Translations under genes and position numbers: made by a program
From: Sedimenticola hydrogenitrophicus
GTDB lineage: Bacteria; Pseudomonadota; Gammaproteobacteria; Chromatiales; Chromatiaceae
Assembly (NCBI RefSeq): GCF_025175675.1
Contig: NZ_JANIOA010000029.1
Span: 1-60,954 of the forward strand
Reading direction: 5' to 3'
Length of the DNA: 60,954 nt
Notes under the pieces: model-generated
The model's database searches: none
The model's input: only the letters and a program-made list of their open reading frames with translations
What the model was told of the DNA's origin: nothing
In this document: piece after piece, positions 12,984 through 35,385 of the stretch
How positions within the stretch are numbered: position 1 is the first letter of the stretch
Layout: each line of letters starts with the position of its first letter

Positions 12984-13117
12984 ACCTTACCCTCCGATGT
13001 ATATCCACGGACATATTCAATACTAACCCATGCTAAGGATATGTCAGTCGTATATCCTAGCGCCCGCGTGGGGGGCGACTAGTACTCCGTAAATGTGATA
13101 ATTACGGATTCAGTTTC

Positions 13118-13206
13118 GTAGGGTGAATAAGCCGGTAGGCGCATGCCATCCTCGGGTCCGTAAACGGTACATCCATGTACCACTCCTCACCATTGCCGCT
13201 GACGCA
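13118..13206. repeat. Partial palindromic element with TACATCCATGTACC core
   Basis: Begins GTAGGGTGAATAAGCC and contains GGTCCGTAAACGGTACATC and ATGTACCACTCCTC, matching the full element at 49664-49776. The right terminus is missing or diverged. The same core occurs at 55481-55521 and 60848-60919. It lies in the 12984-13238 gap between vapB and mazF, where no gene is seen. Confidence 0.65.
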
Positions 13207-14634: not shown

Positions 14635-14636
14635 CA

Positions 14637-14663
14637 GTTCATCCCTGCGGGTGCGGGGAACAC
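14637..14663 (-). repeat. Orphan type I-E-like CRISPR repeat (different class)
   Basis: Read on the minus strand this begins GTGTTCCCCGCACCCGC and ends AGGGATGAAC, nearly identical to a widespread type I-E repeat consensus. It is clearly different from the repeat of the large array in this window. Only one unit is present. It overlaps the last codons of the antitoxin at 14639-14902, which read SPHPQG because of it. Confidence 0.6.
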
Positions 14664-14902
14664 GCGTCACTTTCCAGTTCCGCGATGGAATTCAAAAGGC
14701 GGCTGGCATTTTTCGGACTGCGAAGAAGGTAGGCAGTCTCTTCCAGTGACTGGTAGTCGTCAAGTGAGATCATGACAACCGACCCGGCCCCCTTGCGGGT
14801 AATGATGACCGGGGAATGATCTTCACAAACCCGCTCCATTGTGCTCGCCAGATTGGCGCGGGCGGTGCTGTAGGAAATGGCGTCCACTGAGGGTTCCTTC
14901 AA
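14639..14902 (-). CDS. Phd/YefM-family antitoxin with altered C terminus
   Basis: An 87-residue Phd/YefM-fold protein. The DNA-binding N-terminal half is typical: ISYSTARANLASTMERVCED, then PVIITRKGAGSVVMISLDDYQSLEETAYLL. The last six or so residues (SPHPQG) are encoded by a CRISPR-like repeat, so the normal toxin-neutralising tail may be changed. No toxin gene follows on the same strand; only a short coding-like remnant is there. Possibly an orphan antitoxin. Confidence 0.75.
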   Translation of the reverse strand: MKEPSVDAISYSTARANLASTMERVCEDHSPVIITRKGAGSVVMISLDDYQSLEETAYLLRSPKNASRLLNSIAELESDACSPHPQG

Positions 14903-15079
14903 TATAATGTACTACTTATTGTATATCTGATGACCCTTGGATCAAACTGCTGCACAGCTCAACCAACCCAGCCGAGCTCATTAACGAGCACGATGTCTAC
15001 GTATGTCGTCCTGAATCCCGTTGTTGAGTATCTGTGCTGCCGGTGCGGCAGCAAACCCAAGCAGAACGGACAGTCAGTA

Positions 15080-15126
15080 AAAAAGGTGACAGATCTACAT
15101 TTCATAAATAAATCTGTTACCTTTTT
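15080..15126. repeat. AGGTGACAGAT hairpin, copy 1
   Basis: Left arm AAAAAGGTGACAGAT and right arm ATCTGTTACCTTTTT flank a short AT-rich loop with CATAAATAAA. It interrupts the tail-completion fragment just downstream of codon 55 or so. A second copy lies about 420 bp away at 15506-15547. Confidence 0.7.
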
Positions 15127-15131
15127 CACGG

Positions 15132-15300
15132 ATCCTATGGGATAACATCCGGCGGCCTCGCCGCGTTGGAATCTTTGACGGGTTGAGAGCACTAGGTACT
15201 CGCCGATATCCTCCAGTGGCGGCCTGACATCGGTTCCTGCATCGATCAGCCGATAGAGCGCGGCCAGTACCCGGGTGTCGTCGATTTCAACCTGTACCAT
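15132..15300 (-). pseudogene. Mu-like virion morphogenesis protein, N-terminal fragment 2
   Basis: Encodes VQVEIDDTRVLAALYRLIDA then PPLEDIGEYLVLSTRQRF and RGEAAGCYPIG. This is the N-terminal third of phage virion morphogenesis (tail completion) proteins. It is cut off by the hairpin element at 15080-15126. Together with 14332-14445 it marks two copies of the same gene start in opposite orientations, so the prophage region was rearranged before it decayed. Confidence 0.6.
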
Positions 15301-15505
15301 GGTGTGCTATATGTAGTGTGTCGTGAGTGCTGCATGTCGTCGGCTGGCTTGGGGCCAGGAGCGTTCCGGACGATGGGCGACGGGTATCACTCACGATGCA
15401 TCATCACCCACATAGTCTTGAGTGCCAACCGCTTCCCCGCGTACCTCCCACATCGTCACCAGTTCCTCCCGCCCATACCGTTTGCGGACCTCAACCATCA
15501 AAAAC

Positions 15506-15547
15506 AGGTGACAGATCTATATTGCATAAATAAATTTGTCACCTTTT
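15506..15547. repeat. AGGTGACAGAT hairpin, copy 2
   Basis: AGGTGACAGATCTATA and AATTTGTCACCT flank a CATAAATAAA-rich loop, matching the copy at 15080-15126. The region 15301-15606 otherwise contains no recognisable gene. Confidence 0.65.
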
Positions 15548-15550
15548 TCG

Positions 15551-15573
15551 ATCCCCACTAGCGCGGGGGAACC
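15551..15573 (-). repeat. Second orphan, degenerate type I-E-like repeat
   Basis: On the minus strand this reads GGTTCCCCCGCGC, then TAGTGGGGAT. It resembles the GCGCCAGC-core type I-E repeats, with mismatches and one extra C. It is single and imperfect, so chance similarity cannot be excluded, but it lies only 0.9 kb from the cleaner orphan repeat. Confidence 0.35.
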
Positions 15574-15606
15574 GTCGTCCCACCGTATAGGGCTAGGTCC
15601 GATCCG

Positions 15607-15713
15607 GGCAAACCCCGCTTTTACCCACTCAGTCGCTGACGTTGGCTTCTATGAAGAATTTCTTCTGGTAAGGAGTCGCGGCAAATAATCGCGGATTTTC
15701 GTCGGCACTTACA
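15607..15713 (-). mobile_element. Stub of an IS21-family left end
   Basis: Reading the minus strand from 15713, the sequence begins TGTAAGTGCCGACGAAAATC and continues for about 107 nt with only scattered differences from the left end of the full IS21-type element at 18402. Similarity stops near GCGGGGTTTGCC. No transposase genes remain. The outer end sits 32 nt before the first CRISPR repeat, suggesting this older copy truncated the array. Confidence 0.8.
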
Positions 15714-15745
15714 ACCCCCGCCGGGTCTCCACCAACACATCATCG

Positions 15746-18395
15746 GAAACACCCCCACGGGCGTGGGGAAGACTCATTCAGTCGCAGGCCGGACCCGTAG
15801 AGCAGAGAAACACCCCCACGGGCGTGGGGAAGACAATACCGCCACGGTTCATGCCAGCGATACAGGGGAAACACCCCCACGGGCGTGGGGAAGACCGGGA
15901 ACGCCATCTACGCCTGCCTCATGCTAAGGAAACACCCCCACGGGCGTGGGGAAGACGACAGCCAGCACGGCCAGAGTCATACCGATTGAGAAACACCCCC
16001 ACGGGCGTGGGGAAGACCCTACACCTACTGGGATGATGTACGGATAACTGGAAACACCCCCACGGGCGTGGGGAAGACGAGATCAATCCGAACGATCCGG
16101 CCGCCTTTTTGGAAACACCCCCACGGGCGTGGGGAAGACGCAACCCGCGTGGGGTAGCCCATGTGTCGTAGAGAAACACCCCCACGGGCGTGGGGAAGAC
16201 TCATTACTCAGCGCATCCTTGAGCTCGTGGACGGAAACACCCCCACGGGCGTGGGGAAGACGTGATCAGCACCGGAGCACCGCTCTGCGCCTCGGAAACA
16301 CCCCCACGGGCGTGGGGAAGACCCGGTATCGCTGGCCAAGATAGTGCCGGTATTGGAAACACCCCCACGGGCGTGGGGAAGACATGATCGAGAGATACGG
16401 CGCGCCCTGGTCGACAGAAACACCCCCACGGGCGTGGGGAAGACCGCCCAGGCGGTTATAGATATCGCGGATCGCGGGAAACACCCCCACGGGCGTGGGG
16501 AAGACTCCCAGCGGCCGCAAGAGATAGACAAAACCCTGGAAACACCCCCACGGGCGTGGGGAAGACCCGAGTAACACCGCATGGCACTGAAAGACCGCAG
16601 AAACACCCCCACGGGCGTGGGGAAGACGCTGCGGTCCGCCCAATCCTTGAGACATAACCAGAAACACCCCCACGGGCGTGGGGAAGACTCTAACCCGCCG
16701 TTTTCATACGTACCTATGCCGGAAACACCCCCACGGGCGTGGGGAAGACAACAAGGGGAACAAAAAATGTCTTTAAGCACAAGAAACACCCCCACGGGCG
16801 TGGGGAAGACTATTTACGGCCCACACGGATCAACTGTCCCCAGGAAACACCCCCACGGGCGTGGGGAAGACTGATCTGAAGCAACGGCGCCAGCACATCG
16901 GCAGGAAACACCCCCACGGGCGTGGGGAAGACACCGTCGACCGCTTTGACGGAGACCTGGAACCAGAAACACCCCCACGGGCGTGGGGAAGACGGGATGA
17001 AGCTGATCCATGATGGGTCTTTGTCGGAAACACCCCCACGGGCGTGGGGAAGACTTCACCGACCCACCATCCCCACTCATAGAAACAGAAACACCCCCAC
17101 GGGCGTGGGGAAGACCTCAACCGGCGCACCCGTACCGGCAATGAAATAGAAACACCCCCACGGGCGTGGGGAAGACCGTGTACCAGGATCACCCGCCCCT
17201 TGGGCTGGTGAAACACCCCCACGGGCGTGGGGAAGACGCGGCCCAGGGCCTTGGCTTCATCGGCGACGAGGAAACACCCCCACGGGCGTGGGGAAGACCA
17301 TCTCAGCCGCTCTTGCGGATGGGTGCATCCAGAAACACCCCCACGGGCGTGGGGAAGACTCGGGGACTACTCGAGCCCGGTTGCTCCCCTTGGAAACACC
17401 CCCACGGGCGTGGGGAAGACTGTGCAATACTCTCCGGGTAAGTCTGTGTTTAAGAAACACCCCCACGGGCGTGGGGAAGACAGTTTGACATCCAGTGACC
17501 GTTTATCGGTTTCGGAAACACCCCCACGGGCGTGGGGAAGACAATCCATTGGGTATATCAACCCCAGTGAAGCTAGAAACACCCCCACGGGCGTGGGGAA
17601 GACTCTCTGAATGTGACTGCACTATGAACCACCCCAGAAACACCCCCACGGGCGTGGGGAAGACACTGGATATGAGAGGTTCAGTGGGGTTATTGGGGAA
17701 ACACCCCCACGGGCGTGGGGAAGACCGCTAGCGCATCTCTAAGGGAGACCGTTGCTGAGAAACACCCCCACGGGCGTGGGGAAGACTCTCTGTATGTGAC
17801 TGCAGTATGAACCAATCCAGAAACACCCCCACGGGCGTGGGGAAGACCGTCCTGCAGGGATGCAATGATCTGTTTCCGGGGAAACACCCCCACGGGCGTG
17901 GGGAAGACAGCGGGTTGCCGTTTTCATCGTGCAGGTAGACAGAAACACCCCCACGGGCGTGGGGAAGACGGGGGGTTGGGCGCACTGGTCGCACTCGCTC
18001 AAGAAACACCCCCACGGGCGTGGGGAAGACCTAAAGCCGGCACTCTGAAGAGTGATGCCGCCGAAACACCCCCACGGGCGTGGGGAAGACGTCGATCCCC
18101 AACCGCAACACAAGCACCCGTTGGAAACACCCCCACGGGCGTGGGGAAGACCCAGGATCGGCGGGAATACGAACACGCTTTACAGAAACACCCCCACGGG
18201 CGTGGGGAAGACAACCCGGCTACCCGGCTACCTATCCACTGGGTAGAAACACCCCCACGGGCGTGGGGAAGACCTGTTTGCGGGGTAATTTCAGCACTGG
18301 TCACTGGAAACACCCCCACGGGCGTGGGGAAGACACTGCACAGGCCCGACACAAGCCGCGCAGGATGGAAACACCCCCACGGGCGTGGGGAAGAC
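15746..18395 (-). CRISPR. Type I-E CRISPR array, leader-distal half (44 repeats, 43 spacers)
   Basis: Forty-four copies of a 28-nt repeat. In crRNA sense (minus strand) it begins GTCTTCCCC, has a CCCCACG/CGTGGGG hairpin, and ends GTGTTTC. No repeat variants were seen. Spacing is 61 nt throughout (33-nt spacers) except one 32-nt spacer at 18031-18062. The sense is inferred from alignment to the E. coli I-E repeat and from the cas gene direction. This block was continuous with 21839-24794 before the IS21 insertion and no longer has its own leader. Near-duplicate spacers occur at 17604-17636 and 17787-17819. Confidence 0.98.
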
Positions 18396-18704
18396 ACGTG
18401 GTGTAAGTGCCGACGAAAATCCGCGATTATTTGCCGCGACTGCCTACCAGAAGAAGTTCTGCAGAGAAGCCAACGTCAGTGACTGAGTGGGTAAAAGCGG
18501 GGTTTACCAGGAAGCTGAATCGCTTTAATCGGGTGACAGACCTTTGGAATATTGCTAAGACAAGCTGGCCGAGGAGACAGGCGTAACGCCAGCTAAGATT
18601 GACCGTCACCACTGACGCTACGCCCCAAACCGTGCTTTCGCACAGCCGTGTCAGTGTCGCACCAGACGCGGTTTTTATCCAGCCCTCATCGGCCTTTCGT
18701 GCCG

Positions 18705-19163
18705 ATGAACACCAGTGCTCGTCTTTACCACTGTGCCCGCTGCCATTGCCAAGTCTTTATCTGTCGGCGGTGCGACCGGGGGAATGTCTATTGCGCAGGC
18801 GGCTGTGCCGAACATGCCCGCCAGGCCTCACTACGCCGAGCGGGATCTCGTTACCGTTGCACCCGCCATGGTCGTCTGACCAACGCGGCTCGCCAGCAGC
18901 GGTTCCGGGACCGCCAAAAACAAAAAGTAACGCATCAGGGTTCCCCACCGCCGGTCGCGCTTGTTTTACTGCTGCTCGCATTAAAACCACCGGAAAGTCC
19001 ACGGGAATACGCGCACCGTAAAGACCTTGCCGTCATTCGTTGCCGGTTTTGTGGTCGTGAATGCGAACCCTGCTTGAGACAGGACTTTCTGCGACCCAAC
19101 GAACGCGCTCGATGGTCAAGATCACCGTGCGTGAGCAACGCCCGAGCAGGAGACCGCCATTGA
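18705..19163 (+). CDS. IS21-associated cysteine-rich accessory protein
   Basis: A frame of about 152 codons starting MNTSARLYHCARCHCQVFIC. It has paired Cys motifs CARC, CRRC, YCAGGC and later CRFCGRECEPC, consistent with zinc binding, and a basic middle (RQQRFRDRQKQKVTHQG). Similar small proteins occur upstream of istA in some IS21 elements. Its stop overlaps the proposed istA start by 4 nt, which argues that it is translated. No function is known to me. Confidence 0.6.
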   Translation: MNTSARLYHCARCHCQVFICRRCDRGNVYCAGGCAEHARQASLRRAGSRYRCTRHGRLTNAARQQRFRDRQKQKVTHQGSPPPVALVLLLLALKPPESPREYAHRKDLAVIRCRFCGRECEPCLRQDFLRPNERARWSRSPCVSNARAGDRH

Positions 19164-20689
19164 CCATCGACAAAGCACTCGAAGCAAAGATTCTTCGCTA
19201 TCACTTCGTGGAACAGTGGGGCGTGAACACCATTGCCCGACAGCTGGGTATTCACCATTCTGCCGTTGACCGCGTGCTTGCTCAGGCGGGCTTGCCCAAG
19301 GCCGAACGCACCCGCCAAGCCTCGATTGTCGACCCCTACCACCCGATGATCATCGAGACGCTCGCCCAGTATCCCCGGCTCACCGCCGCGCGCCTGTATT
19401 CCATGGCGCAGGCGCGTGGCTACACCGGGGGGGCGAGCCAGTTTCGGGCGCATGTCGCGCAACTGCGCCCGCGCAGGCCCAGCGAGGCATATCTGCGGCT
19501 GAAGACGCTGCCGGGTGAACAAGGACAAATTGACTGGGGACACTTCGGTCACGTACAGATTGGCCGGGCAAAGCGCCCCCTGATGGCCTTCGTGATGGTG
19601 TTGAGTTGGAGCCGGCAGATCTTCCTGCGCTTCTATCTCAACCAGCGCATGGACAACTTCCTGCGTGGTCATGTGGCGGCGTTCAACGCCTGTGCCGGCG
19701 TGCCCAGGGTACTGCTGTACGATAATTTACGCTCCGCCGTACTCGAACGACAGGGTGATGCGATCCGCTTTCATCCCACCCTGTTGGACCTGTCGGCGCA
19801 CTATCGCTTCGAACCGCGTCCGGTGGCGCCGGCGCGGGGTAATGAAAAAGGCCGTGTCGAGCGGGCAATCCGCTATATCCGCGACAGCTTCTTTGCCGGG
19901 CGTCCCTGGTCGGATGTTGACGACTTGAATGCGCAAGCCGACGCCTGGTGCTCAGGCTTTAGTGCCAATCGCCCCTGTCCGGAAGATCCAAGTATCAGCG
20001 TGCGCGAAGCCTTCGAACAGGAGCGCAGGCAACTGATCGGATTGCCGGATAATCCCTATCCGAGCGACGAACGTCTCGAAGTGAGTGTCGGCAAGACCCC
20101 GTATGTTCGCTTTGATCTCAATGACTACAGTGTGCCGCACACACAGGTACGACGCGCCTTGACGGTACAGGCTTCACTGAATCAGGTGCGGGTGCTGGCA
20201 GGCACTGAGGTGATCGCCGAACATCCACGCGCTTATGGCAAGGGCGAGCAGATCGAAGACCCAGCCCATCTCGAAGCGCTGGTCAGCGCCAAACGCGCCG
20301 CGCGTCATCATCGCGGCCAGGATCGACTGGCACAGGCCGCCCCATCCAGTCGTGCGCTGTTACAACAGGCCGCACACCGCGGCACCCCGCTGTCACGTGC
20401 CACCGCCGAGCTGGTGCAACTGCTCGATGACTACGGCGCGAGCGAACTTGAGCAGGCCATCGCCGAGGCGCTCAACAACGATGTACCCCATCCCAGCGGT
20501 GTGCGGCAAGTCCTCGAACGCCGGCGTGAGCTACGCGATCGACCACCACCGATCACGCTGACGCTGCCCGACAACGATAAGGCGCGCAACATCGTTGTGC
20601 GTGCGCCTTCGTTGGCGCTCTATGACCAACTCAACCCCGATACCGATGATGACCCTGAACCGGAGCAAACTGATGACGACATCCTCTGA
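19160..20689 (+). CDS. istA: IS21-family transposase IstA
   Basis: The DDE recombinase of the element. An N-terminal helix-turn-helix (TIARQLGIHHSAVDRVLAQ) is followed by the catalytic core: first Asp in GEQGQIDWGHFG, second Asp in VLLYDNLRSAV, Glu in GNEKGRVERAIRY, and a C-terminal beta-barrel region. TTG at 19160 is preferred because AGGAG lies about 8 nt upstream and the codon overlaps the accessory gene stop. ATG codons at 19061 and 19112 are alternatives. It overlaps istB by 17 nt. Length about 509 residues, normal for the family. Confidence 0.92.
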   Translation: MTIDKALEAKILRYHFVEQWGVNTIARQLGIHHSAVDRVLAQAGLPKAERTRQASIVDPYHPMIIETLAQYPRLTAARLYSMAQARGYTGGASQFRAHVAQLRPRRPSEAYLRLKTLPGEQGQIDWGHFGHVQIGRAKRPLMAFVMVLSWSRQIFLRFYLNQRMDNFLRGHVAAFNACAGVPRVLLYDNLRSAVLERQGDAIRFHPTLLDLSAHYRFEPRPVAPARGNEKGRVERAIRYIRDSFFAGRPWSDVDDLNAQADAWCSGFSANRPCPEDPSISVREAFEQERRQLIGLPDNPYPSDERLEVSVGKTPYVRFDLNDYSVPHTQVRRALTVQASLNQVRVLAGTEVIAEHPRAYGKGEQIEDPAHLEALVSAKRAARHHRGQDRLAQAAPSSRALLQQAAHRGTPLSRATAELVQLLDDYGASELEQAIAEALNNDVPHPSGVRQVLERRRELRDRPPPITLTLPDNDKARNIVVRAPSLALYDQLNPDTDDDPEPEQTDDDIL

Positions 20690-21497
20690 TGCTGATCCGA
20701 TCTTACGCGGCGACCTAAGGCAACGCGCTGCCGCGCTGAAACTGCATGGCCTGCTGGCCCACTGGGATGAGACACCCGAGGCCGAATGGCCCTGGGTGCG
20801 CAGCCTCATTGAATGGGAAGAGATCGAGCGCAAGCGTCGCGGACTTGAACGGCGCCTCAGTGCGGCGCACATCGGGCGCTTCAAGCCGCTGGCCGACTTC
20901 GATTGGGGTTGGCCGACACAGTGCGACCAGGCCGCTGTATCCGGGTTCATGACCCTGGGCTTTATCCAGCAGACCGCCAACCTCATCCTGGTTGGACCCA
21001 ACGGCGTCGGCAAATCCATGATCGCACAGAACATCGCCCACCACGCCGTGATGCAAGGACATAGCGCGTTGTTCGTCAACGCCGCCCAGATGCTGGGCGA
21101 CCTGGCGGCGCAGGATGGTGACAACGCACTGCGGCGTCGGCTGAAACACTATGCCCACCCGGACGTCCTGGTGATCGACGAGATCGGTTATCTCTCCTAC
21201 GGCAATCGCCACGCCGATCTGTTGTTCAACATCATCAACCGCCGTTACGAACTCAAACCCACGATCGTGACCACGAATCGACCGTTTGCCGAATGGAGCG
21301 AGGTGTTCCCGAACGCCGCCTGCGTCGTGTCAATTGTCGACCGACTGGTGCATCACTCAGAAATCCTCGTCATCGAGGGTGGGTCGTATCGCATGAAAGA
21401 GGCCAAGGAGCGCGCCACCAGGAAGAAGAAATCGCCCAAACCCCGACGGGCCGTTCCCGCGAAGGCGACGGACAAATCTCCGGCAGGAGAAAAATGA
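20673..21497 (+). CDS. istB: IS21-family helper ATPase IstB
   Basis: AAA+ ATPase that helps IstA assemble on target DNA. Walker A NLILVGPNGVGKSMIAQN, Walker B VLVIDEIGYLSYG, and the sensor segment TIVTTNRPFAEWSEVFPNA are all present. The tail is strongly basic (RKKKSPKPRR). ATG 20673 follows the coupled overlap with istA; upstream in-frame ATGs exist. 274 residues, normal length. Confidence 0.93.
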   Translation: MTTSSDADPILRGDLRQRAAALKLHGLLAHWDETPEAEWPWVRSLIEWEEIERKRRGLERRLSAAHIGRFKPLADFDWGWPTQCDQAAVSGFMTLGFIQQTANLILVGPNGVGKSMIAQNIAHHAVMQGHSALFVNAAQMLGDLAAQDGDNALRRRLKHYAHPDVLVIDEIGYLSYGNRHADLLFNIINRRYELKPTIVTTNRPFAEWSEVFPNAACVVSIVDRLVHHSEILVIEGGSYRMKEAKERATRKKKSPKPRRAVPAKATDKSPAGEK

Positions 21498-21703
21498 CCA
21501 TGTCGATGAAAGTGACCCGCTTATACACTTACTGGTCGCCCGCCGAAGCTCAGACCATCATCGAGTTCCTGGATCGATTGCGAGATCAGCTCTGGGATAC
21601 CTACGGTGACCAGATCATCAGTCTCCTGCAGGAAGCTTCCGTCTCTCAGGACGTTGACGAACTACAGGCCAAGCTTGAGTTCGACGACGACATCGAGTTC
21701 TAG
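21494..21703 (+). CDS. Small IS21-associated ORF (69 aa)
   Basis: Starts in an ATGA overlap with the istB stop, which implies translational coupling. Sequence features: LYTYWSPAEAQTIIEFLDRL and an acidic tail LEFDDDIEF. It is predicted mostly helical with no signal peptide or membrane segment. Function unknown; the position inside the element suggests a transposition accessory or passenger. Confidence 0.6.
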   Translation: MTMSMKVTRLYTYWSPAEAQTIIEFLDRLRDQLWDTYGDQIISLLQEASVSQDVDELQAKLEFDDDIEF

Positions 21704-21838
21704 CCAGGACGGCTAACGTGCGCGAACGATGGTGTCAGTGAGCCACCATGCCTAGAGGCGGAAACAGGTCGCGGCAAATAGTCGCGGTTTTACTCCGGCA
21801 ACAACACGTGGTCACCCCCAAAATGAGTACCCTCTCGA

Positions 21839-24794
21839 GAAACACCCCCACGGGCGTGGGGAAGACCCATTTATTTTATGTTTAATCTTAATCATTGAAG
21901 AAACACCCCCACGGGCGTGGGGAAGACGTGAGCGCGCTTGTAGGTTTCCGATGCTGCCCGGAAACACCCCCACGGGCGTGGGGAAGACATTGATCCCGCA
22001 CCCCGGACAATACACGTAGTAGAAACACCCCCACGGGCGTGGGGAAGACGGGCGCACTGTCACCACAGTAAAAAAGGGTTCAGAAACACCCCCACGGGCG
22101 TGGGGAAGACTTGGGGGTGACCACGTATGGTCGCAGTGTCACCGAAACACCCCCACGGGCGTGGGGAAGACTCGCCGGGGTGGTCATAATCGGCGGACTG
22201 ATCAGAAACACCCCCACGGGCGTGGGGAAGACCGGGTGGCAGGCAGCACCAAGCACCGAAAGATGGAAACACCCCCACGGGCGTGGGGAAGACACGGCCG
22301 GCGGCTCGTCGTGGCGGAAGATCACGGAAACACCCCCACGGGCGTGGGGAAGACCGGTAGATGAAAATCAACTTCGAGAGGTACTCAGAAACACCCCCAC
22401 GGGCGTGGGGAAGACGGGCTGGCGGCAATCGTGCCGGAGTCCTATAAGGAAACACCCCCACGGGCGTGGGGAAGACTGGGGTGGTATATAGTGCAGTCAC
22501 ACACACACAGAAACACCCCCACGGGCGTGGGGAAGACTTCCGACCGCTACCAGAATCGGTAATCACGCAAGAAACACCCCCACGGGCGTGGGGAAGACTT
22601 TACGGGTCGGGTCTGTCTGAACGCCGCCTTGGAAACACCCCCACGGGCGTGGGGAAGACGTGAGTACCAACCCCATCAAAGTACTCGACCTGGAAACACC
22701 CCCACGGGCGTGGGGAAGACAGGGGTGACCGGTAGGTTTTGGAGGCCGGGTCGGAAACACCCCCACGGGCGTGGGGAAGACACAACTACATCAAAGCAAC
22801 CCGAAAGCAGATCAGAAACACCCCCACGGGCGTGGGGAAGACCCGTTTCGTATCGTCCAGAAGGACATAATTATAGAAACACCCCCACGGGCGTGGGGAA
22901 GACGCGGGGAGCTGGCCGACGACCTCCAGTAGATCGGAAACACCCCCACGGGCGTGGGGAAGACGGTGACCAGCAGCGCTTGTAGGGCGTTTTTCAGGAA
23001 ACACCCCCACGGGCGTGGGGAAGACTCGACAAAATCACCCGCGACAACATCATAGACAGAAACACCCCCACGGGCGTGGGGAAGACCGCCACTTCACCCC
23101 GGTTCCGCCCCTTGCCTTGGAAACACCCCCACGGGCGTGGGGAAGACCTTTACTGGACACATTGGTATTGCTTCAGGATAGAAACACCCCCACGGGCGTG
23201 GGGAAGACCGGTGGTAGTCAATGATACAGCCGGCGTATGTAGAAACACCCCCACGGGCGTGGGGAAGACCCGCCTGGCTGCCTAGTACCTGTCTGGAGGT
23301 AAGAAACACCCCCACGGGCGTGGGGAAGACTACGGCGTGGCCCTGCTCTCGCAGATAGCGATAGAAACACCCCCACGGGCGTGGGGAAGACTGGAAAGAG
23401 GTTGCATATACCGACCTTAGCTAAGAAACACCCCCACGGGCGTGGGGAAGACTCCGCGCCGCTGATGGCCCGCCGCCTGGTGGTGGAAACACCCCCACGG
23501 GCGTGGGGAAGACTAAAAGAGCTAGGGCTACAGAAAACCGTATGTAGAAACACCCCCACGGGCGTGGGGAAGACTCTGCCTTATCAGCCCGAGCTTTTGC
23601 AGCCTCGGAAACACCCCCACGGGCGTGGGGAAGACGGACCATTGTTTTCCACCGTTCAATAGAACATAGAAACACCCCCACGGGCGTGGGGAAGACACCA
23701 CCATCAGGACAAGTGGCATAGTATGTTAAGAAACACCCCCACGGGCGTGGGGAAGACCTGGGCTTGATCTCACGGAGGTCCTTTTCGTAAGAAACACCCC
23801 CACGGGCGTGGGGAAGACCCAGGAGACCGGGTTAATGCCGTTGCTTGCAGGGAAACACCCCCACGGGCGTGGGGAAGACGAAAAATATAGCTCTTGCCAG
23901 CAAACGCCATCGGAAACACCCCCACGGGCGTGGGGAAGACTTGGCGCAGTATCGACCAGCCCCGTTCCTTATGGAAACACCCCCACGGGCGTGGGGAAGA
24001 CCCAGCAACGCCTGGAAAGGCATGGTAAGCGTAAGAAACACCCCCACGGGCGTGGGGAAGACCAGGAAAAATATAGCTCTTGCCAGCTAACGTCAGAAAC
24101 ACCCCCACGGGCGTGGGGAAGACCTCACAGCGGCAATGTGGGCCGCCATTGCCGCAGAAACACCCCCACGGGCGTGGGGAAGACATTTGAGAAGAGGCGC
24201 TGACCCGGTCGAACGTGGAAACACCCCCACGGGCGTGGGGAAGACACCTCCAGGGCCCAGGCCTCATAGTCGGCGCTAGAAACACCCCCACGGGCGTGGG
24301 GAAGACCAGGCGGCCATCCAGACGGAGCTGGCCGATCTGGAAACACCCCCACGGGCGTGGGGAAGACCCGGCTGCCGACCGTTCGGCGGTAAAGCGGATG
24401 GAAACACCCCCACGGGCGTGGGGAAGACTTGACGATAAAGGCGAGTTGCTGTGGATCTTGAGAAACACCCCCACGGGCGTGGGGAAGACCCATATATCAG
24501 GCATGTTCGGATCACCACCACGGAAACACCCCCACGGGCGTGGGGAAGACGGCGCCACCATGCGGGTCACGTTGCGGTTGATGGAAACACCCCCACGGGC
24601 GTGGGGAAGACTGAGTCCGGCGTTGCGGGTGGTGCTGTGATGGGGAAACACCCCCACGGGCGTGGGGAAGACGATTGATCGGTTGGTCAATGCGATCACC
24701 GGGCGGAAACACCCCCACGGGCGTGGGGAAGACGTGAACACCATCGGCGCCCGCCACGCCTTCGCGGAAACACCCCCACGGGCGTGGGGAAGAC
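21839..24794 (-). CRISPR. Type I-E CRISPR array, leader-proximal half (49 repeats, 48 spacers)
   Basis: Same 28-nt repeat as the block at 15746, at a constant 61-nt period, with all 48 spacers 33 nt long. The leader-proximal repeat is 24767-24794, next to cas2. With the IS removed, the combined array has 93 repeats and 92 spacers. Related spacers include 23880-23912 with 24063-24095 (offset by 3 nt), 22477-22509 (opposite-strand relative of 17604-17636), and 22111-22143 (overlapping the IS-split spacer on the opposite strand). Confidence 0.98.
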
Positions 24795-24841
24795 ACCAAC
24801 ATATTGTTAAAGATCTCAGCCTCAAACACAAGATAGGCTAT
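24795..24841 (-). promoter_or_regulatory. Short CRISPR leader between cas2 and the array
   Basis: Only 47 bp, AT-rich, lie between the cas2 stop and the first repeat. In transcript sense it ends GATCTTTAACAATATGTTGGT next to the first repeat. A weak IHF-like match (TATCTTGTGTTTG, two mismatches to the consensus) is present. Any promoter would have to lie here or inside the cas2 3' end, or the array may be read through from the cas operon. Confidence 0.6.
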
Positions 24842-25129
24842 TTAGAGGGATTTCAGGGTTTCAACTACCAGTTGTAGCCCTGACAAGGTTGTAAGATTCT
24901 TTTTCGTCGGCCCGATAGTTCTTATTTCATACCCTGGCGCGGTTGGTAGTGAGCGAAACATGACTATTCCGGATTCAGGAGGACAATGTCTGTACAGATA
25001 ATCAATGACGGTTGAGGCGACCGAATCCCTAATACCGGATACGAATACATTTGGCTTTGGCTCGACAAACCAGAGCTTCATACGTCCGCGCACGGCGGGG
25101 GGAAGATCATTTGCGATAACGACGAGCAC
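24842..25129 (-). CDS. cas2: CRISPR-associated protein Cas2e
   Basis: A 95-residue type I-E Cas2, the central dimer of the Cas1-Cas2 spacer integration complex. It shows the subtype start MLVVIANDLPPAVRGRMKLW and the strand NVFVSGI. The segment GYEIRTIGPTKKNLTTLSGL matches the I-E-specific C-terminal region. The start overlaps the end of cas1 by 23 bp. Last gene before the leader. Confidence 0.94.
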   Translation of the reverse strand: MLVVIANDLPPAVRGRMKLWFVEPKPNVFVSGIRDSVASTVIDYLYRHCPPESGIVMFRSLPTAPGYEIRTIGPTKKNLTTLSGLQLVVETLKSL

Positions 25130-25982
25130 GCTTATCCCCCAGCACGTCTGGTATGTCTTCGGCCAGTTTCGCCAGCAGGTCCATCTCGATAACCCGCTGA
25201 CGAAAGGCAGCAGATACCTTGTGCTTATCGTACCGGCCTGCCAGATCGCGAGTTAGGGAGAAGGCAAGATCAATACATAGGTGTTCCTTGTACAGGTCGG
25301 CCAGGTCATAGACTAACGGCAAGGGACTTCCCGAGTGGATAAAGCCAACATGGGGCAGGTAGCCCATGCTGTGCACCGCAGAACAGAGAATACCGTACAA
25401 CGCGGCATTGGCGGCGGTGAGCACCTGATTGGTGATGTCACTCAGGTCGAACTTTCCGGGGGTGAAGTTACGACCTTTCCAGCCAACCTGATACTCCTCG
25501 GCCTTTTGTTGGTAGAGAGCACGGACACGGTGACCCTCCATCCCCATCATCTCCTTGAGGCCTTTGCCATCCAGATCGGCTTCGGGAAAGCGGCGGGCAA
25601 ACATTCTGCGCGCCACTTCCAGTGACTTTTTCGGGTTGGCCGACAATTCAATCTGGTGCCTGAGGTTGCGGGTATCCGCTGTGGGTAGAAAACCCGCAGC
25701 ATAGAACAGTAGCGTATCCTCACCCACCCAACAGACTGAGCAGTTAGCCGCCACCGCTGTTTTGATCGCATCGTGTGTGACCGTGGTGCCGGGTCCGAGG
25801 AGCAGGGTATTGAGGGTCGCCACCGGCAGGGGTACAACGTTTCGATCGGCATCTATCCATTTGATGCTGCTGTCGTCGATCTCCAGCCTCCCACGCTCCA
25901 GGTAGATAAACGGATATTTATCCTTGACCCGCGGTAGGGAATCCCGTGTTACCTTGACGAACAGACGCTGTCCCGCTGCCAT
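25107..25982 (-). CDS. cas1: CRISPR-associated integrase Cas1e
   Basis: A 291-residue type I-E Cas1. The metal-binding residues of the family are present: Glu149 in MMGMEGHRVRALY, and His216 with Asp226 and Asp229 in GFIHSGSPLPLVYDLADLYK. The N-terminal beta domain (FIYLERGRLEIDD) and the helical catalytic domain are complete. It lies 5 bp after the cas5 stop. The adaptation genes look functional. Confidence 0.96.
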   Translation of the reverse strand: MAAGQRLFVKVTRDSLPRVKDKYPFIYLERGRLEIDDSSIKWIDADRNVVPLPVATLNTLLLGPGTTVTHDAIKTAVAANCSVCWVGEDTLLFYAAGFLPTADTRNLRHQIELSANPKKSLEVARRMFARRFPEADLDGKGLKEMMGMEGHRVRALYQQKAEEYQVGWKGRNFTPGKFDLSDITNQVLTAANAALYGILCSAVHSMGYLPHVGFIHSGSPLPLVYDLADLYKEHLCIDLAFSLTRDLAGRYDKHKVSAAFRQRVIEMDLLAKLAEDIPDVLGDKRARRYRK

Positions 25983-25987
25983 GGCAA

Positions 25988-26698
25988 TTACTCCCTTTTT
26001 TGAACCGTAACCCGCCGATCCCGATATTTTTTCCGTTCCCCAAATTGCAGAGGCACGTCATTCAGGATCAACACCTCACCATCGTGTTCACCCTGTAGTA
26101 CCCGGAAGACAAACGAACGGTTCTTCTCAGCAGATAGCACCTCAGCGGCTTGCAGTGCCTCGGCTGCAGTGTCAAATACACCTTGGCCAATGAATTCGGT
26201 TGGCGCACAGTTCTTGCGACCCAGGTAGAGATCCCAGACCGGGCTGGACAGCGCTTGTACTACCTCATCGACCATTGCCAGCGGGGCCTGCAGGGCGACG
26301 GCATAAGCCATCTCCTGCAGGTAGTAGCGGTAGGTCATTTTTGTGCCACCGCCAACGGCCTTTTTCCCCTCGCTGGTTTTCGGGATCAACAGACCTTCCC
26401 ACGGGTCACGGTCATCATAGCCGCTGCCAACCATGTGAAAATCCCTTAGCAGTGGCTGCCGGTGCTGCGTGTTGCCATTCCTGTCCTTCGGCACATAGGC
26501 AACCAGTTGCATGTCCAGATCGGCCCACGCACTGAGCCATTGCGCTTCCTCGCCACCAGCGCCGCGGGCACAACAGAGTAGGCCCAACACGCCGGACTTG
26601 GTAGGAAAATCGAGGCTGTCGCGACGGCCAAATTTCGAGTCATGCCCCCATGACTGCAAGGGCGCTTCCAGCCAGAGGAGCAGATAGGGATCGCTCAT
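25988..26698 (-). CDS. cas5e: Cascade subunit Cas5e (CasD)
   Basis: A Cas5e of about 236 residues, the subunit that holds the crRNA 5' handle. The start LLLWLEAPLQSWGHDSKFGR and the segment DSLDFPTKSGVLGLLCCA are the family signature, and the C-terminal part DVPLQFGERKKYRDRRV closes the RAMP fold. ATG 26698 is preferred, with AGGTG upstream; a GTG at 26710 overlapping the cas7 stop is possible. Confidence 0.94.
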   Translation of the reverse strand: MSDPYLLLWLEAPLQSWGHDSKFGRRDSLDFPTKSGVLGLLCCARGAGGEEAQWLSAWADLDMQLVAYVPKDRNGNTQHRQPLLRDFHMVGSGYDDRDPWEGLLIPKTSEGKKAVGGGTKMTYRYYLQEMAYAVALQAPLAMVDEVVQALSSPVWDLYLGRKNCAPTEFIGQGVFDTAAEALQAAEVLSAEKNRSFVFRVLQGEHDGEVLILNDVPLQFGERKKYRDRRVTVQKRE

Positions 26699-26706
26699 AG
26701 GGCACC

Positions 26707-27735
26707 TCACTGAACATGGCTTTGCAGTGCGGTGACGAGGTCATCGATGCTGAAATTTTCATCCTCACCCCAGTCATAGCTGGCCTGCTTGCCAAATAGG
26801 GAGCCAGAGAGTTTCTCCTTCTTGTCCAGGTAACTCTTGAGAGTCTCGATGCTGGGTTGCGAATAGCCGCCATCCTTCGCCTTGACTGCCGTTTCAAACG
26901 GCACCTGCAGGCGCTGCCCCTTGCGTACCATGACCCGTGCAAACTCCCAGGGGCTAGCGCCGGACTGGGTGGTTTGGCGGGCACTGGGGACGGCGACATA
27001 AAGTGCCTGGGTAAATGCCGCAATGGCTTTTTTGAGGTCATCCTCACCCAAAGACTGGGCCAGTTGTCCCAGGTCGAGGCTGATATAGCGGTAATAGGTC
27101 GCAGAATTGAACTCCAGGCTGCCCATATGCGCCGAGCCTGGCTCGGTTTGCAGGTCATCCAGGGCGGTGAAAAATTCCACCTCATTACTCACTTTGTGGG
27201 TGGAGATGGCATGGGCGAAGGAGGCGGCCGCCTCGACGTTCATATCGGCTGCCTTGGCTACCATGCGGCCAAACAGGGCGATATCCAATGCGTCCACCGC
27301 TGGGTTGATCGCTTTCTTTGCAACTTTGGCGAGCTCTTTTTCTTTTAGCGTGGATTCATCAAACTCATGTTCTTTGGCATATTCGGCGAAGGCCTTGGCC
27401 TCTGTTCCGCTGATAAACAGCAAGGTATCATCAATCAACAGATCGGCCATCTTCTTTCCGCATGCCGCTGCCTTTTCCTCGTCGGCCCCGGACTCAAGGC
27501 AGGCTTGAGTGAAAAGCCCTTGGGCCTGTTTGGTACGCGCCGCTAGCTTGACGCCAAATTTCTGCATCTCCTGACGAACCTGCCGTTTCCAACACTGCGA
27601 GCTGACGCGGGCGCGGGTCACCCCACCCACGATGGCGGTCTTCGGCGCCCCCACGTCATCACGGTTTAGACAAGTGACGGGGAAGGATTGCAGGATATGG
27701 TATTCGAAGCGGGTGTTGGTATATGCGTTAGTCAT
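26707..27735 (-). CDS. cas7e: Cascade backbone subunit Cas7e (CasC/Cse4)
   Basis: A 342-residue backbone protein that polymerises along the crRNA. The typical N terminus is present: FEYHILQSFPVTCLNRDD, then GAPKTAIVGGVTRARVSSQC. Also seen are a Lys/Glu-rich thumb and a late GASPWEFARVMVRKGQRLQ region. Length is normal. It follows cas6e by 14 bp, which differs from the E. coli order, where cas7 follows cse2. Confidence 0.95.
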   Translation of the reverse strand: MTNAYTNTRFEYHILQSFPVTCLNRDDVGAPKTAIVGGVTRARVSSQCWKRQVRQEMQKFGVKLAARTKQAQGLFTQACLESGADEEKAAACGKKMADLLIDDTLLFISGTEAKAFAEYAKEHEFDESTLKEKELAKVAKKAINPAVDALDIALFGRMVAKAADMNVEAAASFAHAISTHKVSNEVEFFTALDDLQTEPGSAHMGSLEFNSATYYRYISLDLGQLAQSLGEDDLKKAIAAFTQALYVAVPSARQTTQSGASPWEFARVMVRKGQRLQVPFETAVKAKDGGYSQPSIETLKSYLDKKEKLSGSLFGKQASYDWGEDENFSIDDLVTALQSHVQ

Positions 27736-27749
27736 ATTGAATTTCCTTT

Positions 27750-28394
27750 TCAGGCAAAGGGATTGTCGATAAGAGGCACGATCTGCAGCAGACCGCAGCC
27801 AAAAGTGCGGGCGCGGCCAATGCCCTGAGTGAAACTGTTGCGAAACTGTTCTCGATCGGTAACACGGAGTTGGCCTTGCACGTGTGCTTGGGCGATGGTG
27901 ACGGGATTATGCTGTTTGTCGTTGAAATTCAGCACTTCAACTTTATCCACCTGCAGGTGTTGTGGCGACACACGAAAGCCCCAGCTCTGTTGCGCCCGTT
28001 CCGTGAACCATTCACCAATCGCCTCGCGCCCCTTGATCGGCAACAGCTTGCGGCTGGCGCTATCGCGCCGTGTCGGGTTGACGATGATCTTGAAGCGATA
28101 GTGGTCATGATCGAGAAAACCGTTCGCCACCGGCCTGCTCTGTACCTCGCCGTACAGGCCGCCAATACAATCGGCGGGTGCACGGTTTGCCAGCAAAAGG
28201 ATGCGACGACCGGAAAAATCGCCGCCCTGGTCAGCAAACAGGATGCCGCTACTCTGGCTCGCGCTTTTCTCCCTGGCTTCACGCACATCCTCATACAGGC
28301 TGTAGACCACCCGATGCAGGGAGTAGGGGTCAGTGATTCGCAGCGCCTTGACCGCCTTGCGATCGAGGTGCAGCACGCTGGCGATCATGCTCAT
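27750..28394 (-). CDS. cas6e: Pre-crRNA endoribonuclease Cas6e (CasE/Cse3)
   Basis: A 214-residue tandem-ferredoxin RAMP nuclease that cuts at the base of the repeat hairpin. The catalytic-region His is in DPYSLHRVVYSLY (about residue 27). The Gly-rich loop is GIGRARTFGCGLLQIVP near the C terminus. The ATG overlaps the cse2 stop (ATGA). Its placement between cse2 and cas7 is the notable feature of this operon. Confidence 0.93.
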   Translation of the reverse strand: MSMIASVLHLDRKAVKALRITDPYSLHRVVYSLYEDVREAREKSASQSSGILFADQGGDFSGRRILLLANRAPADCIGGLYGEVQSRPVANGFLDHDHYRFKIIVNPTRRDSASRKLLPIKGREAIGEWFTERAQQSWGFRVSPQHLQVDKVEVLNFNDKQHNPVTIAQAHVQGQLRVTDREQFRNSFTQGIGRARTFGCGLLQIVPLIDNPFA

Positions 28395-28945
28395 GTGCCT
28401 TCCTCCTGTGCGTTTTCATTCACCGGCTGGCTGTAAAACTCCTGTGCCCACTGCGCTTTGACCTGCTGATCATTAAATGAAAAGCGGTGTAACTGCCCGA
28501 GCAGGCGAATGAAGTCGAGCGGCTGTCTGGCCTTGCTGTCGATGAGCGAAAAGAGCGAGCGCAGGATTCGGCTCACTTCGGCCAGGTCAGAGCAGGCCAG
28601 CAAGCGTCTGAGTCGTGCCTTAGCCTGGCTGCTTTCCCGGCCCTCCTCATAGCAGGCGGCGATTGCCCTGCCCAGAGACAGTGTACCGTTGCGCTCCGCC
28701 TTGGACTTGGCAATCGCCGCTGCGATGGCGACAAACGGTAACCGTTGATATTCACGCTCAAGGTCGATGCCATACGAAGCCAGCAGTTCCCAGCTTTGGT
28801 ATTCAGTTGCCGGGTTATCCGCCCGCCGCAGGCGTGCGGCAAGCCCTTTATCCTGCTGGCACTGCTGGACGACACCATTGACGAAACGCATCTCCCACTC
28901 GTGATATTTATCACTGCTTTGCTTTTGGGTTTCTACCGCTTCCAT
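28391..28945 (-). CDS. cse2: Cascade small subunit Cse2 (CasB)
   Basis: A 184-residue all-helical small subunit, present as a dimer in Cascade, that stabilises the displaced strand. Recognisable features: LAARLRRADNPATEYQSWELL and a C-terminal basic helix with FIRLLGQLHRFSFNDQQVKAQWAQEFY. It starts 4 bp after cas8e ends, indicating tight operon packing. Confidence 0.9.
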   Translation of the reverse strand: MEAVETQKQSSDKYHEWEMRFVNGVVQQCQQDKGLAARLRRADNPATEYQSWELLASYGIDLEREYQRLPFVAIAAAIAKSKAERNGTLSLGRAIAACYEEGRESSQAKARLRRLLACSDLAEVSRILRSLFSLIDSKARQPLDFIRLLGQLHRFSFNDQQVKAQWAQEFYSQPVNENAQEEGT

Positions 28946-28949
28946 TCCC

Positions 28950-30458
28950 TCACGCCTCCTGTTTCAGGTATTTGCTATTACTCGGTCGGCACTTGGCCCA
29001 GGCATCAAGCTGTCGTGCGGTTTCTTTTGGGCAGTACTGGTCGTAGGCTTGCTGAATGTTGCCGGCAAAGCGTTTGCGCAGTCGCTGCCGTTGCAGACGG
29101 CCCTGCTCGTTAGGGTCACAACTATCCACCAGCGCCTGAAAATTGCGCTCGCAGAGTTGCCAGAAGAGGTGGGTTGCCTGCGCGGCAAGTTTGCCACCAC
29201 TATTTTTTGCGTCGACACTCAGTTCCTTGTAAAAGCCGATCACTCGACCATAGAGCCCTTTGGCCAGCTCATTGAGGGCATTCATCTCCGCCTTGAGCTG
29301 TGCAAACCAGCTGTCACCCAGCATGTCGCTATGCAGCCAGATCGTTGACTCGACAAAGTCATCACTTCCGGAGGCATACTGCTCACCGGCATTGCTGCTG
29401 ACTCGCAACCCACCTGACCAGATGGCAAAGGTTGCTGTACTATCGCGTGCGCGATCTAAGCCGGCACTGATCTGTCTGCTTTGAAACCCCTGGATTTGCT
29501 CATGTCCGATAAAGCCCAGTAGTGAAGTCAGCTCGCGCCAGGGGCGTTTTTCTGGATTAACCCAGAGTGCCTTTGGCTCTTTTCCTGAATTATTCACGGC
29601 GACGGTTGGGTCAGTGACACCTTCCTTGTGGCTGGCATGTGTTAGACCTTCAGAGTAATGCAGCCCTTCATCGGCTAAGAGGCAAAAACGGCATAACGGC
29701 ACTAGCCTCCCCATGAGTGATTGCTTTAACCTCTGCGCCACTGGGCAATCTTCCCCAACCGGCATCAGCTCCCAGGGTGCGCCGCCGATGCCATGCGAGA
29801 AAATGTTGGTCTGTTCAATCTGCCGTGATGTCAGTAGATTGAGCCAGAGTGTTTGCTGTATAGCGTCACCAAGGAAATAGTTGTGCAATAGTCCCATGTG
29901 CGCGACCGACGGACCGGGCTTGCTGGAGGACGGCTTGCCCTTATCATTCCGCTTTCCCTGATAGCTTGGTGTCAGCGTTATGCTGTTGTCGGTTTTTTTC
30001 CCCGCCAGGGCAAACCCCATCAGACTGACCAGCAACACCGCCTTGTCGGCATCATCCAGTGGTCGTTGCACCTGAGTCTGACTTAGCACCGTGGTGTTCC
30101 CGGTGGACACCTCCGGCAGGACGGCGCCATAGCTCTGTAGCGCCGCCGCCGCAATGGCCGGCATCTGCAAAAACGGTCGTTCACCATAGAGATAGAAGCG
30201 GTCATGCCACTTCTCCAGGTACTCTGCGCAACGGCGAGACAGCCCCTCAGCCCCAAGAGCCTTCCACTCACGGTCATCCTCCGGTGTCACCGCCGCCTGG
30301 GCGATGGCCAGCAACAGCTTCATCAGGGCGATCTTCTGCACCGGGTTGCCACCCAGACTCCTATATTCCGGATGGGTGAATATCTGCCGCAAGCCGGCCC
30401 GGCCGACATCCGCCACTGGTATCCAGGGTTCATCCACCAGATTGAAACGGTTTTCCAT
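28950..30458 (-). CDS. cas8e: Cascade large subunit Cas8e (Cse1/CasA)
   Basis: A 502-residue protein, the PAM-sensing large subunit of the interference complex. The family start FNLVDEPWIPVADVGRAGL, the segment YGERPFLQMPAIAA, and the C-terminal four-helix bundle region are visible. The predicted PAM preference is discussed in the findings. Same length range as E. coli CasA. Confidence 0.94.
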   Translation of the reverse strand: MENRFNLVDEPWIPVADVGRAGLRQIFTHPEYRSLGGNPVQKIALMKLLLAIAQAAVTPEDDREWKALGAEGLSRRCAEYLEKWHDRFYLYGERPFLQMPAIAAAALQSYGAVLPEVSTGNTTVLSQTQVQRPLDDADKAVLLVSLMGFALAGKKTDNSITLTPSYQGKRNDKGKPSSSKPGPSVAHMGLLHNYFLGDAIQQTLWLNLLTSRQIEQTNIFSHGIGGAPWELMPVGEDCPVAQRLKQSLMGRLVPLCRFCLLADEGLHYSEGLTHASHKEGVTDPTVAVNNSGKEPKALWVNPEKRPWRELTSLLGFIGHEQIQGFQSRQISAGLDRARDSTATFAIWSGGLRVSSNAGEQYASGSDDFVESTIWLHSDMLGDSWFAQLKAEMNALNELAKGLYGRVIGFYKELSVDAKNSGGKLAAQATHLFWQLCERNFQALVDSCDPNEQGRLQRQRLRKRFAGNIQQAYDQYCPKETARQLDAWAKCRPSNSKYLKQEA

Positions 30459-30469
30459 AATCTCTGTCC

Positions 30470-33073: not shown

Positions 33074-33229
33074 CGGTTATCTGTACTGCTATACGCCGCC
33101 ACTATTCGATCCAAGGCTCCATCTCCATTATTGGTATGTCGTTCCTCTTCTTGTCTTCGACTTTCAGTCCATGAGAGCATCAACTCTAACCGATAACTGG
33201 CTCATATATTGACCCTGCTGCCATCCGGG

Positions 33230-34195
33230 TTACGGTTTTTGGTAGTGCTGCAGCGCCTGGAGCAGTCGCTCCTCCACCTTGGCACTGAGCGCCGCCGGCC
33301 CCACCACCTCTACATCCGGGCCATATTTGAGGATGTCCATCAGCAGCTCCGTGGGATTGGCATAAGGGACATGCAGCTCATAGCATTCGCCAAGCCACTT
33401 CCCGACCTGTTTGGGATGCCACTGTTCGTCGGCGACCCAACGGGACATGCGCGGCGAAAAGCGCAGCACCGCCCAGTCGCTCGCTTCATCAGTGAAGATG
33501 CCGAAGCCCGCATCGAGGTGGTGCTTGAGCGCTGCTTCGTCTATCTGGCGCTGCGGAATGGCCTGGATATGGGTATCCGTGATCCGGTCCAGCGAGAAGG
33601 TGCGCAGTGCATCCGCCGACTCACACCAGGCGATGGCATACCAGTTATCGCGGTAGTGGAGCAGACGATAGGGGTGGATCCGTCGCCGGGTCCGTTCTCC
33701 CTTCCCCCTGCCGTGGTAGTCGATATCGAGCACATTGCCATCCAGCACGGCGCCGGCGACGGTGCCGAAACAGTGGCTTTCCAGGCCACGGCTGCCCATC
33801 GGCTGCAGCACGATGCGGGAGGTGACGGTGTTGCTGGTATGGCCGCTCTTCTCCAGCAGGGCGCGGATGCGTGTCTTCAGCGGGCCGATGTGAGGGCCGA
33901 GGAACCCGGGCTGTACGCTCTCCAGCAACTGCTCACTGGCAAGCAGGGCGTAGAGTTCGCTTTTATTGAACCAGAGTCCCGGAAGCTCGAATTCACCTTG
34001 CCCGGTATCGTAGTAGTAGGCATTGTCGTGCCGGTCGTAGATCAGCGGCGCCCCAAGTTGATCGCGCAGCAGGTCCAGATCGCGTTTGATGGTAGCCCTG
34101 GAGACCTCGAGACGCTCCATCATCCGCTGCAGCGAGAGACGGCGTTCCTTTTTCAGGAGCTGGTGTAACTGGAATATTCGGCTGGTGACGCCCAC
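33230..34195 (-). CDS. WYL-domain transcriptional regulator upstream of cas3
   Basis: A 321-residue protein with an N-terminal winged helix-turn-helix (RIFQLHQLLKKERRLSLQRM, EVSRATIKRDLDLLRDQLGA). A WYL domain follows (YRLLHYRDNWYAIAWCESAD then LRTFSLDRI), and then a C-terminal WCX-like part. WYL regulators commonly sense nucleic-acid ligands and are enriched at CRISPR and defence loci. It is on the same strand and 156 bp upstream of cas3, so it is the best candidate regulator of this locus (inference). Confidence 0.88.
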   Translation of the reverse strand: MGVTSRIFQLHQLLKKERRLSLQRMMERLEVSRATIKRDLDLLRDQLGAPLIYDRHDNAYYYDTGQGEFELPGLWFNKSELYALLASEQLLESVQPGFLGPHIGPLKTRIRALLEKSGHTSNTVTSRIVLQPMGSRGLESHCFGTVAGAVLDGNVLDIDYHGRGKGERTRRRIHPYRLLHYRDNWYAIAWCESADALRTFSLDRITDTHIQAIPQRQIDEAALKHHLDAGFGIFTDEASDWAVLRFSPRMSRWVADEQWHPKQVGKWLGECYELHVPYANPTELLMDILKYGPDVEVVGPAALSAKVEERLLQALQHYQKP

Positions 34196-34468
34196 GGTCG
34201 ATCCCTGGTTTATTGTTGTTATCTCTGGCGGCCGCCGGTATTAAGCGAGCTACCTCCCTGACCAGCGGAAATAACCTCGTAAAGTGCTGAGGAATTCGAT
34301 TCATTTTAGCTGGCGACCACAATACACACGAACACCATGCCTGTTCAAGACTTCGACCGCCCTCGTTAACTGATTCCGGCTCCACGATGGGCTTGCGGCA
34401 GAGACAGGGGTTCAGAAAAGGCCAGGGGGGATCACAGTGGCATTCCCACGCCACCCTTTTTTACAACT

Positions 34469-35366: not shown

Positions 35367-35385
35367 ACGCTGCCGGAGCGCATAA

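Follow-up and report, generated by a model that had tools for sequence, protein, structure and literature searches.

A type I-E CRISPR array of Sedimenticola hydrogenitrophicus, probably split by one IS21-family insertion into a spacer behind a boxA-like leader

The window analysed here, a stretch of 60,954 nt from Sedimenticola hydrogenitrophicus (contig NZ_JANIOA010000029.1, positions 1 to 60,954), carries an array of 93 clustered regularly interspaced short palindromic repeats (CRISPR) that is interrupted, inside one of its spacers, by an insertion sequence (IS) of the IS21 family. An earlier note on this DNA had described such an element splitting a single 93-repeat array, and its coordinates and counts proved correct. 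We consider it highly probable that a single IS21-family transposition struck spacer 49, counted from the leader, and displaced the older block of the array from that leader.

The two joints of the element carry this conclusion. Reading from the left, the repeat at 18368-18395 is followed by ACGTGG (18396-18401), the element, a second CGTGG, 27 nt (21812-21838) and the next repeat (21839-21866), and the 5-bp target-site duplication CGTGG lies at 18397-18401 (left copy) and 21807-21811 (right copy), with no strand assigned. Removal of the element together with one duplication joins 6 and 27 nt into a spacer of 33 nt, as the note had proposed, and 33 nt is also the length of 90 of the 91 full spacers, the remaining one measuring 32 nt. 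Because the duplication, the inverted ends TGT...ACA and a restored spacer of standard length agree, the arrangement reflects one insertion event and not chance. On the leader side nothing of spacer 49 has been lost: since a single nucleotide separates the end of the duplication from the repeat, and the IS and the spacer have the same final base, the IS terminal base, the duplication and the 27 nt together form a full 33-nt copy (21806-21838, minus strand), from which only the following repeat is missing.

The inserted DNA (18402-21806, plus strand, 3405 bp) has the marks of its family. IS21 elements have terminal inverted repeats that begin with TGT and end with ACA, and they duplicate about 4-8 bp of target. 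Here the left terminal inverted repeat (18402-18440, plus strand) starts TGTAAGTGCC, the right one (21768-21806, plus strand) has ACA as its final bases, and the ends are complementary at 80% over 40 nt, counting one flanking base; istB lies 3' of istA, and the duplication measures 5 bp. The transposase gene istA (19061-20689, plus strand, 542 aa) matches NF033546 with 254 bits against a cut-off of 160, and the helper ATPase gene istB (20673-21497, plus strand, 274 aa from the ATG at 20673) matches NF038214 with 203 bits against a cut-off of 200, as well as PF01695. The typical length of an IS21 element is 2-2.5 kb; this one, at 3.4 kb, is longer and carries two extra open reading frames (ORFs), both from the ORF list. 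The accessory ORF at 18648-19163 (plus strand, 171 aa, Cys-rich by eye) has no NCBIfam match, and the frame 18599-19018 that overlaps it has none in Pfam. The small ORF at 21500-21703 (plus strand), which lies 3' of istB in the frame of ORF 21293-21703, gave no NCBIfam or Pfam family match over 21503-21700. As regards present transposition activity, the ORFs of the element are open. Besides this one full copy, the draft genome holds two pieces of the left end: a 413-bp fragment (96% identical), which lies on another contig, and a 111-bp relic (93% identical) at the trailer end of the same array.

The 28-nt repeat GAAACACCCCCACGGGCGTGGGGAAGAC occurs in 93 perfect copies between 15746 and 24794, all in a single orientation, 44 to the left of the IS and 49 to its right, and the whole draft genome (4,713,368 bases, that is 4.71 Mb, in 132 contigs) contains no further copy at up to 3 mismatches. 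The leader-distal block (15746-18395, minus strand) comprises 44 repeats and 43 spacers, and the leader-proximal block (21839-24794, minus strand) 49 repeats and 48 spacers. Type I-E arrays have repeats of about 28-29 nt and spacers of 32-33 nt in a 61-nt unit, and the dimensions found here are the same. In the sense of the CRISPR RNA (crRNA), the first base is C or T in 90 of 93 spacer units, a total that takes in the full spacers, the restored spacer and the terminal piece; the restored spacer is among the 90. Only the units at 22111-22143, 18031-18062 and 17177-17209 depart from this, and the first of them (spacer 44) may represent a back-to-front integration. Spacer 44 also shares 16 nt with the restored spacer 49, in a stretch that spans the duplication and is read in the opposite sense, and 20 rounds of within-spacer shuffling produced no spacer pair sharing 13 nt or more. 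By eye, spacer 40 has a neighbouring stretch in common with the restored spacer, with a one-base gap. Since spacers 44 and 40 overlap the restored spacer or its neighbouring stretch, the sequences of spacers 40, 44 and 49 seem to sample one unseen target. Near-identical spacers are also found at 17604-17636 and 17787-17819 in the left block and at 22477-22509 in the right block (in opposite sense and the same register, one sequence being sampled), and as a pair at 23880-23912 and 24063-24095, offset by 3 nt.

The direction in which the array is read follows from the cas genes. A type I-E operon (24842-33073, minus strand) was recognized from Pfam and NCBIfam matches and ORFs: cas3 (30470-33073, Pfam/NCBIfam), cse1 (28950-30458, NCBIfam Cse1 at 232 bits, over the cut-off), cse2 (28391-28945), a cas6e-like gene (27750-28394), cas7 (26707-27735) and cas5 (25988-26710), these four by Pfam only, cas1e (25107-25982, NCBIfam, 320 bits, over the cut-off) and cas2e (24842-25129, NCBIfam, 94 bits, over the cut-off), all on the minus strand. 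The cas6e-like gene follows cse2 and precedes cas7; in E. coli, cas6e comes after cas5. Because cas2 ends 47 bp from the nearest repeat of the array, the leader, upstream of repeat 1 in the crRNA sense, is placed on the right (24795-24841, minus strand, 47 bp from the cas2 stop to repeat 1) and the array is read leftward. The note's further statement, that the 43 spacers on the left are older and now separated from the leader by 3.4 kb, holds with this arrangement, their age being taken from the usual polarity of arrays.

Within the leader lies a boxA-like antitermination motif, GATCTTTAACA (24805-24815, minus strand), which starts 21 nt before repeat 1 and matches 10 of 11 positions of GCTCTTTAACA, a motif that we take to be boxA, at which the antitermination complex of rRNA assembles. 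We compared the leaders of the window and 36 related loci, gathered in one scan of genome contigs; 13 were dropped as having no detected array of this repeat kind. A match to GCTCTTTAACA of at least 9 of 11 was present in 22 of the 24 remaining leaders (the window's included), 21 of them at an identical offset, where shuffled leaders gave an expectation of 0.185. In this regard, papers citing Stringer et al. (2020, eLife) state, in the text available, that CRISPR arrays in E. coli or in Gammaproteobacteria are protected by boxA-type complexes, where boxA likewise lies upstream of the array.

These features allow us to propose how the split array may be expressed. Transcription would run leftward from the short boxA leader observed beside cas2, and the IS lies in the orientation opposite to this reading direction. 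Spacers 1-48 would be expressed as before; spacer 49, lacking its following repeat, would yield a crRNA without a Cas6e-made 3' end; and spacers 50-92 would require RNA polymerase to cross 3.4 kb antisense to istB and istA. Since boxA-type complexes protect untranslated RNA from Rho, according to the literature cited above, part of the transcription may cross the IS. We tentatively favour the view that crRNA from the older 43 spacers (50-92) would be reduced and not abolished. The earlier note had warned that nearly half of the immune memory would be silent if transcription could not cross the IS; such silence cannot be assumed, because the leader bears the boxA-like motif. Nor does the antisense strand of the IS exceed the array in C>G stretches, which are a crude indicator of Rho sites: a C/G ratio of at least 1.5 was reached in 2.8% of 78-nt windows on that strand, the right block giving 10.4% and the left block 5.1%.

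Several observations weigh against partial read-through. The motif is missing from 2 of the 24 leaders and stands at another place in one, and its conservation can partly mirror the shared descent of the leaders, which shuffling does not control for. Between 18200 and 22000 there are 9 terminator-like sites (4.1 expected), 5 of them within the element; 3 of these 5 are on the strand on which the array is read, and one reading-strand site (TCGCGGCAAATAATCGCGG ATTTTC) lies at the left end of the IS, just before the left block. Finally, the literature consulted offers no description of boxA antitermination acting across an IS in antisense orientation. The terminator scan separates little, however, because CRISPR repeats score as terminator-like too: the left and right stretches gave 31 and 34 sites (5.1 and 5.8 expected), most of which were repeats.

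The closest competitor is practical silence of the older block, in which transcription would stop at the IS and only 48 spacers, plus perhaps spacer 49, would protect the cell. This is a credible outcome, if a somewhat doubtful one. The 3.4 kb of antisense sequence with IS genes running in the opposite direction, the 6399 bp that separate repeat 1 and the left block, the three reading-strand terminator-like sites within the IS and the lack of a detectable sigma-70-like promoter on the array strand of the left block or IS all speak for it. The boxA motif in the leader points the other way, as do the 44 left-block repeats, all perfect and without decay, though a recent insertion explains these equally well; intact repeats say only that the insertion is recent or that the block has been kept. 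Near-normal expression of the older spacers takes up what probability the other outcomes leave.

The left block could instead be read from a new start, either an outward promoter at the left end of the IS or a promoter carried by a spacer, and the available text on the IS-split CRISPR2 array of E. coli ATCC 8739 makes such a proposal (PMC2886076). We regard this as unlikely in the window, where a consensus scan of 18200-22000 gave no promoter-like site, nor did the minus strand of the left block show one. The scan was of sigma-70 type only and found no site at the leader either, and it may therefore miss real promoters.

A broader scheme would make read-through part of a mutual tolerance: an IS21 lineage drawn to CRISPR arrays, inserting here at one fixed point of the repeat unit (32 nt past a repeat), which keeps the leader-side spacer whole, while boxA carries polymerase across and little memory is lost. 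We consider this improbable. At the trailer end, comparison with the element revealed the relic mentioned above, 111 bp of the left end of the IS, inverted (15603-15713, minus strand), separated from the last perfect repeat by a 32-nt spacer-like piece (15714-15745, minus strand). Both IS joints, in the split spacer and at the trailer relic, hence fall exactly 32 nt after a repeat, and two independent insertions would share a phase of the 61-nt unit by chance about once in 61 times. This identical offset was noticed after the fact and is suggestive, a lead only. Beyond the relic, local alignment picked out a possible, weak degenerate terminal repeat (15549-15574, minus strand), but against the three repeats compared, 31, 43 and 60 of 1000 shuffles scored at least as well.

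We also surveyed where relatives of the element reside. Apart from the window's own copy, searches for IstA relatives gave 12 copies among the other 193 family genomes (E 1e-120), spread over 7 of them, and 9 copies among the other 368 class genomes (E 1e-130), spread over 5; one of the 12 and none of the 9 lay in a CRISPR array. None of 38 further IS21 regions did so (40 had been chosen, mainly from complete genomes, among the matches listed, and 2 repeated earlier loci). Overall, 1 of 59 other copies lies in an array, which is 1 of 21 with IstA at least 57% identical and 0 of 38 in the wider set. As the array accounts for about 0.1% of the genome (5.6 kb of 4.7 Mb here), 1 of 59 exceeds expectation; it remains a single event without a control, and we do not claim a preference of IS21 for CRISPR arrays. 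One locus flagged as an array (L157) was rejected as a different kind of short tandem repeat, and in two others (L173 and L179) the flagged positions, numbering 8 and 4, were too few to make an array. A further 30 automatic loci (L114-L143), whose flanks may not leave the IS, were unflagged and are uncounted.

The one positive case belongs to a family relative (G117) with six cousin IS21 copies, one of them in an array, and duplications of 5 or 6 bp. Its IstA is 66% identical to the window's, the array likewise continues on both sides of the element, and GATCTTTAACA again occurs in the apparent leader. The two cases differ in that the cousin struck a repeat, of other sequence, in its loop and with a 6-bp duplication, CGCTCG, and in that about 62 nt separate GATCTTTAACA from the first repeat found. 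At this locus (contig C1, 6863-13105), the cousin reads against the apparent direction of the array it splits.

Still less probable is that the insertion was selected for disabling spacer 49 or those farther from the leader, in the manner of ISC1359 in Sulfolobus under plasmid challenge, a precedent taken from partial text of its sources (PMC4390879, PMC3839810). Disabling spacer 49 would gain little, because all 33 nt survive on the leader side and spacers 40 and 44, which are nearer the leader, overlap the same target sequence. No target emerged either: the right and left blocks had no match at E 0.1 in 50,697 phage records, and three spacer-derived patterns had 0 matches each in viral contigs. 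Among plasmids, 24 records matched the right block, all at 60-80%, and 26 matched the left block, where 3 reached 90-95%; judged from the listed matches alone, these look like other arrays with similar repeats. The 93 spacer units shared no 14-mer with the first 20 kb of two genus contigs that have arrays. They shared one 15-mer with the rest of the window, where spacer 10 matches at 50823; this match was set aside as chance. Spacer 58 has an 18-nt exact match in Nitrosospira sp. Nsp11 (L054, position 19523), the only one of at least 18 nt among loci L028 onward, own-array loci excluded.

That two separate arrays flank an IS, or that the assembly is at fault, is extremely improbable even for a draft in 132 contigs, given the target duplication and restored standard-length spacer, the identical repeats in the same orientation on both sides and the single full genomic copy of the IS. 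No uninterrupted allele was found, and no closer strain was encountered. The repeat is carried by 2 of 9 genus genomes, the window's own included; in the other (G001), a short array at the beginning of a contig has no 14-mer in common with the window's spacers. At this locus (contig C4, 159-857) the repeat is the window's, and the last (trailer) repeat is of the sequence type, GTCTTCCCCGCACCTGCGGGGATGAACC, that belongs to the other I-E-like system described below.

The split array is a further case of a published phenomenon rather than a new kind, because an IS21 element within a spacer and an IS-split array in E. coli have already been published. According to the available text on Xanthomonas citri pv. 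citri (PMC6889575), an IS21-family element (ISRso19-like) lies in spacer Xcc_18 of strain LG097, and another IS21-family insertion occupies the repeat between Xcc_20 and Xcc_21 in four strains. Our case resembles these in IS family and, for one of them, in the insertion within a spacer. The Xanthomonas array is short, with 23 ancestral spacers, and IS ends occur 42 times in one draft genome; the window has a 93-repeat array, a single full IS copy and a second relic in the same array. The CRISPR2 array of E. coli ATCC 8739 has 32 repeats and is split by an IS, and the portion of that report available raises an effect on the transcription of distal spacers (PMC2886076). Its authors suggest that the IS may bring regulatory signals; in our case no promoter-like site was found in the IS or on the array strand of the left block, and the leader carries boxA. 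In Sulfolobus solfataricus, ISC1359 entered a spacer under plasmid challenge (PMC4390879, in part); as in the window, the IS lies inside a spacer, but that case is archaeal and experimentally selected, whereas no selection is shown for ours. The same review, in the text available, considers transposition into CRISPR loci very rare in Sulfolobales (PMC4390879), and IS insertions in cas genes are also on record (PMC10359306, in part). In the accessible parts of the papers citing Stringer et al. (2020), none describes a boxA-bearing array broken by an IS.

The flanks of the locus hold further features. At 14635-14663 there is a single copy, with 3 changes, of another I-E-like repeat, GTGTTCCCCGCACCCGCGGGGATGAACC, and at 14668-14886 a 219-bp piece that matches, at 83% identity, DNA situated amid cas-like genes in a genus relative (G006), these genes being judged by eye from its ORF list. 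An array of the GTGTTCCCCGCACCCGCGGGGATGAACC-type repeat occupies the same place in that relative, to which the window's right flank (33191-37480) is 94% identical. From these sequences, 14635-14886 has the appearance of a scar left where one I-E system took the place of another. Around 13109-13199, an element some 80 bp long has at least dozens of matches in the window's genome and in G006, mostly at 84-98% identity. Palindromic 47-nt elements at 15080-15126 and 15502-15548 (GGTGACAGATC...) are 74% complementary, and the former overlaps ORF 14962-15300 (minus strand), whose phage tail match is below the Pfam cut-off.

Long CRISPR arrays have to be transcribed over many kilobases without translation. 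In this regard, a natural array cut mid-way by a 3.4-kb antisense element behind a boxA leader offers a ready test of how far boxA reaches, and at the same time of the effect of an IS on old immune memory. In other respects the insertion is an ordinary transposition, of use in strain typing.

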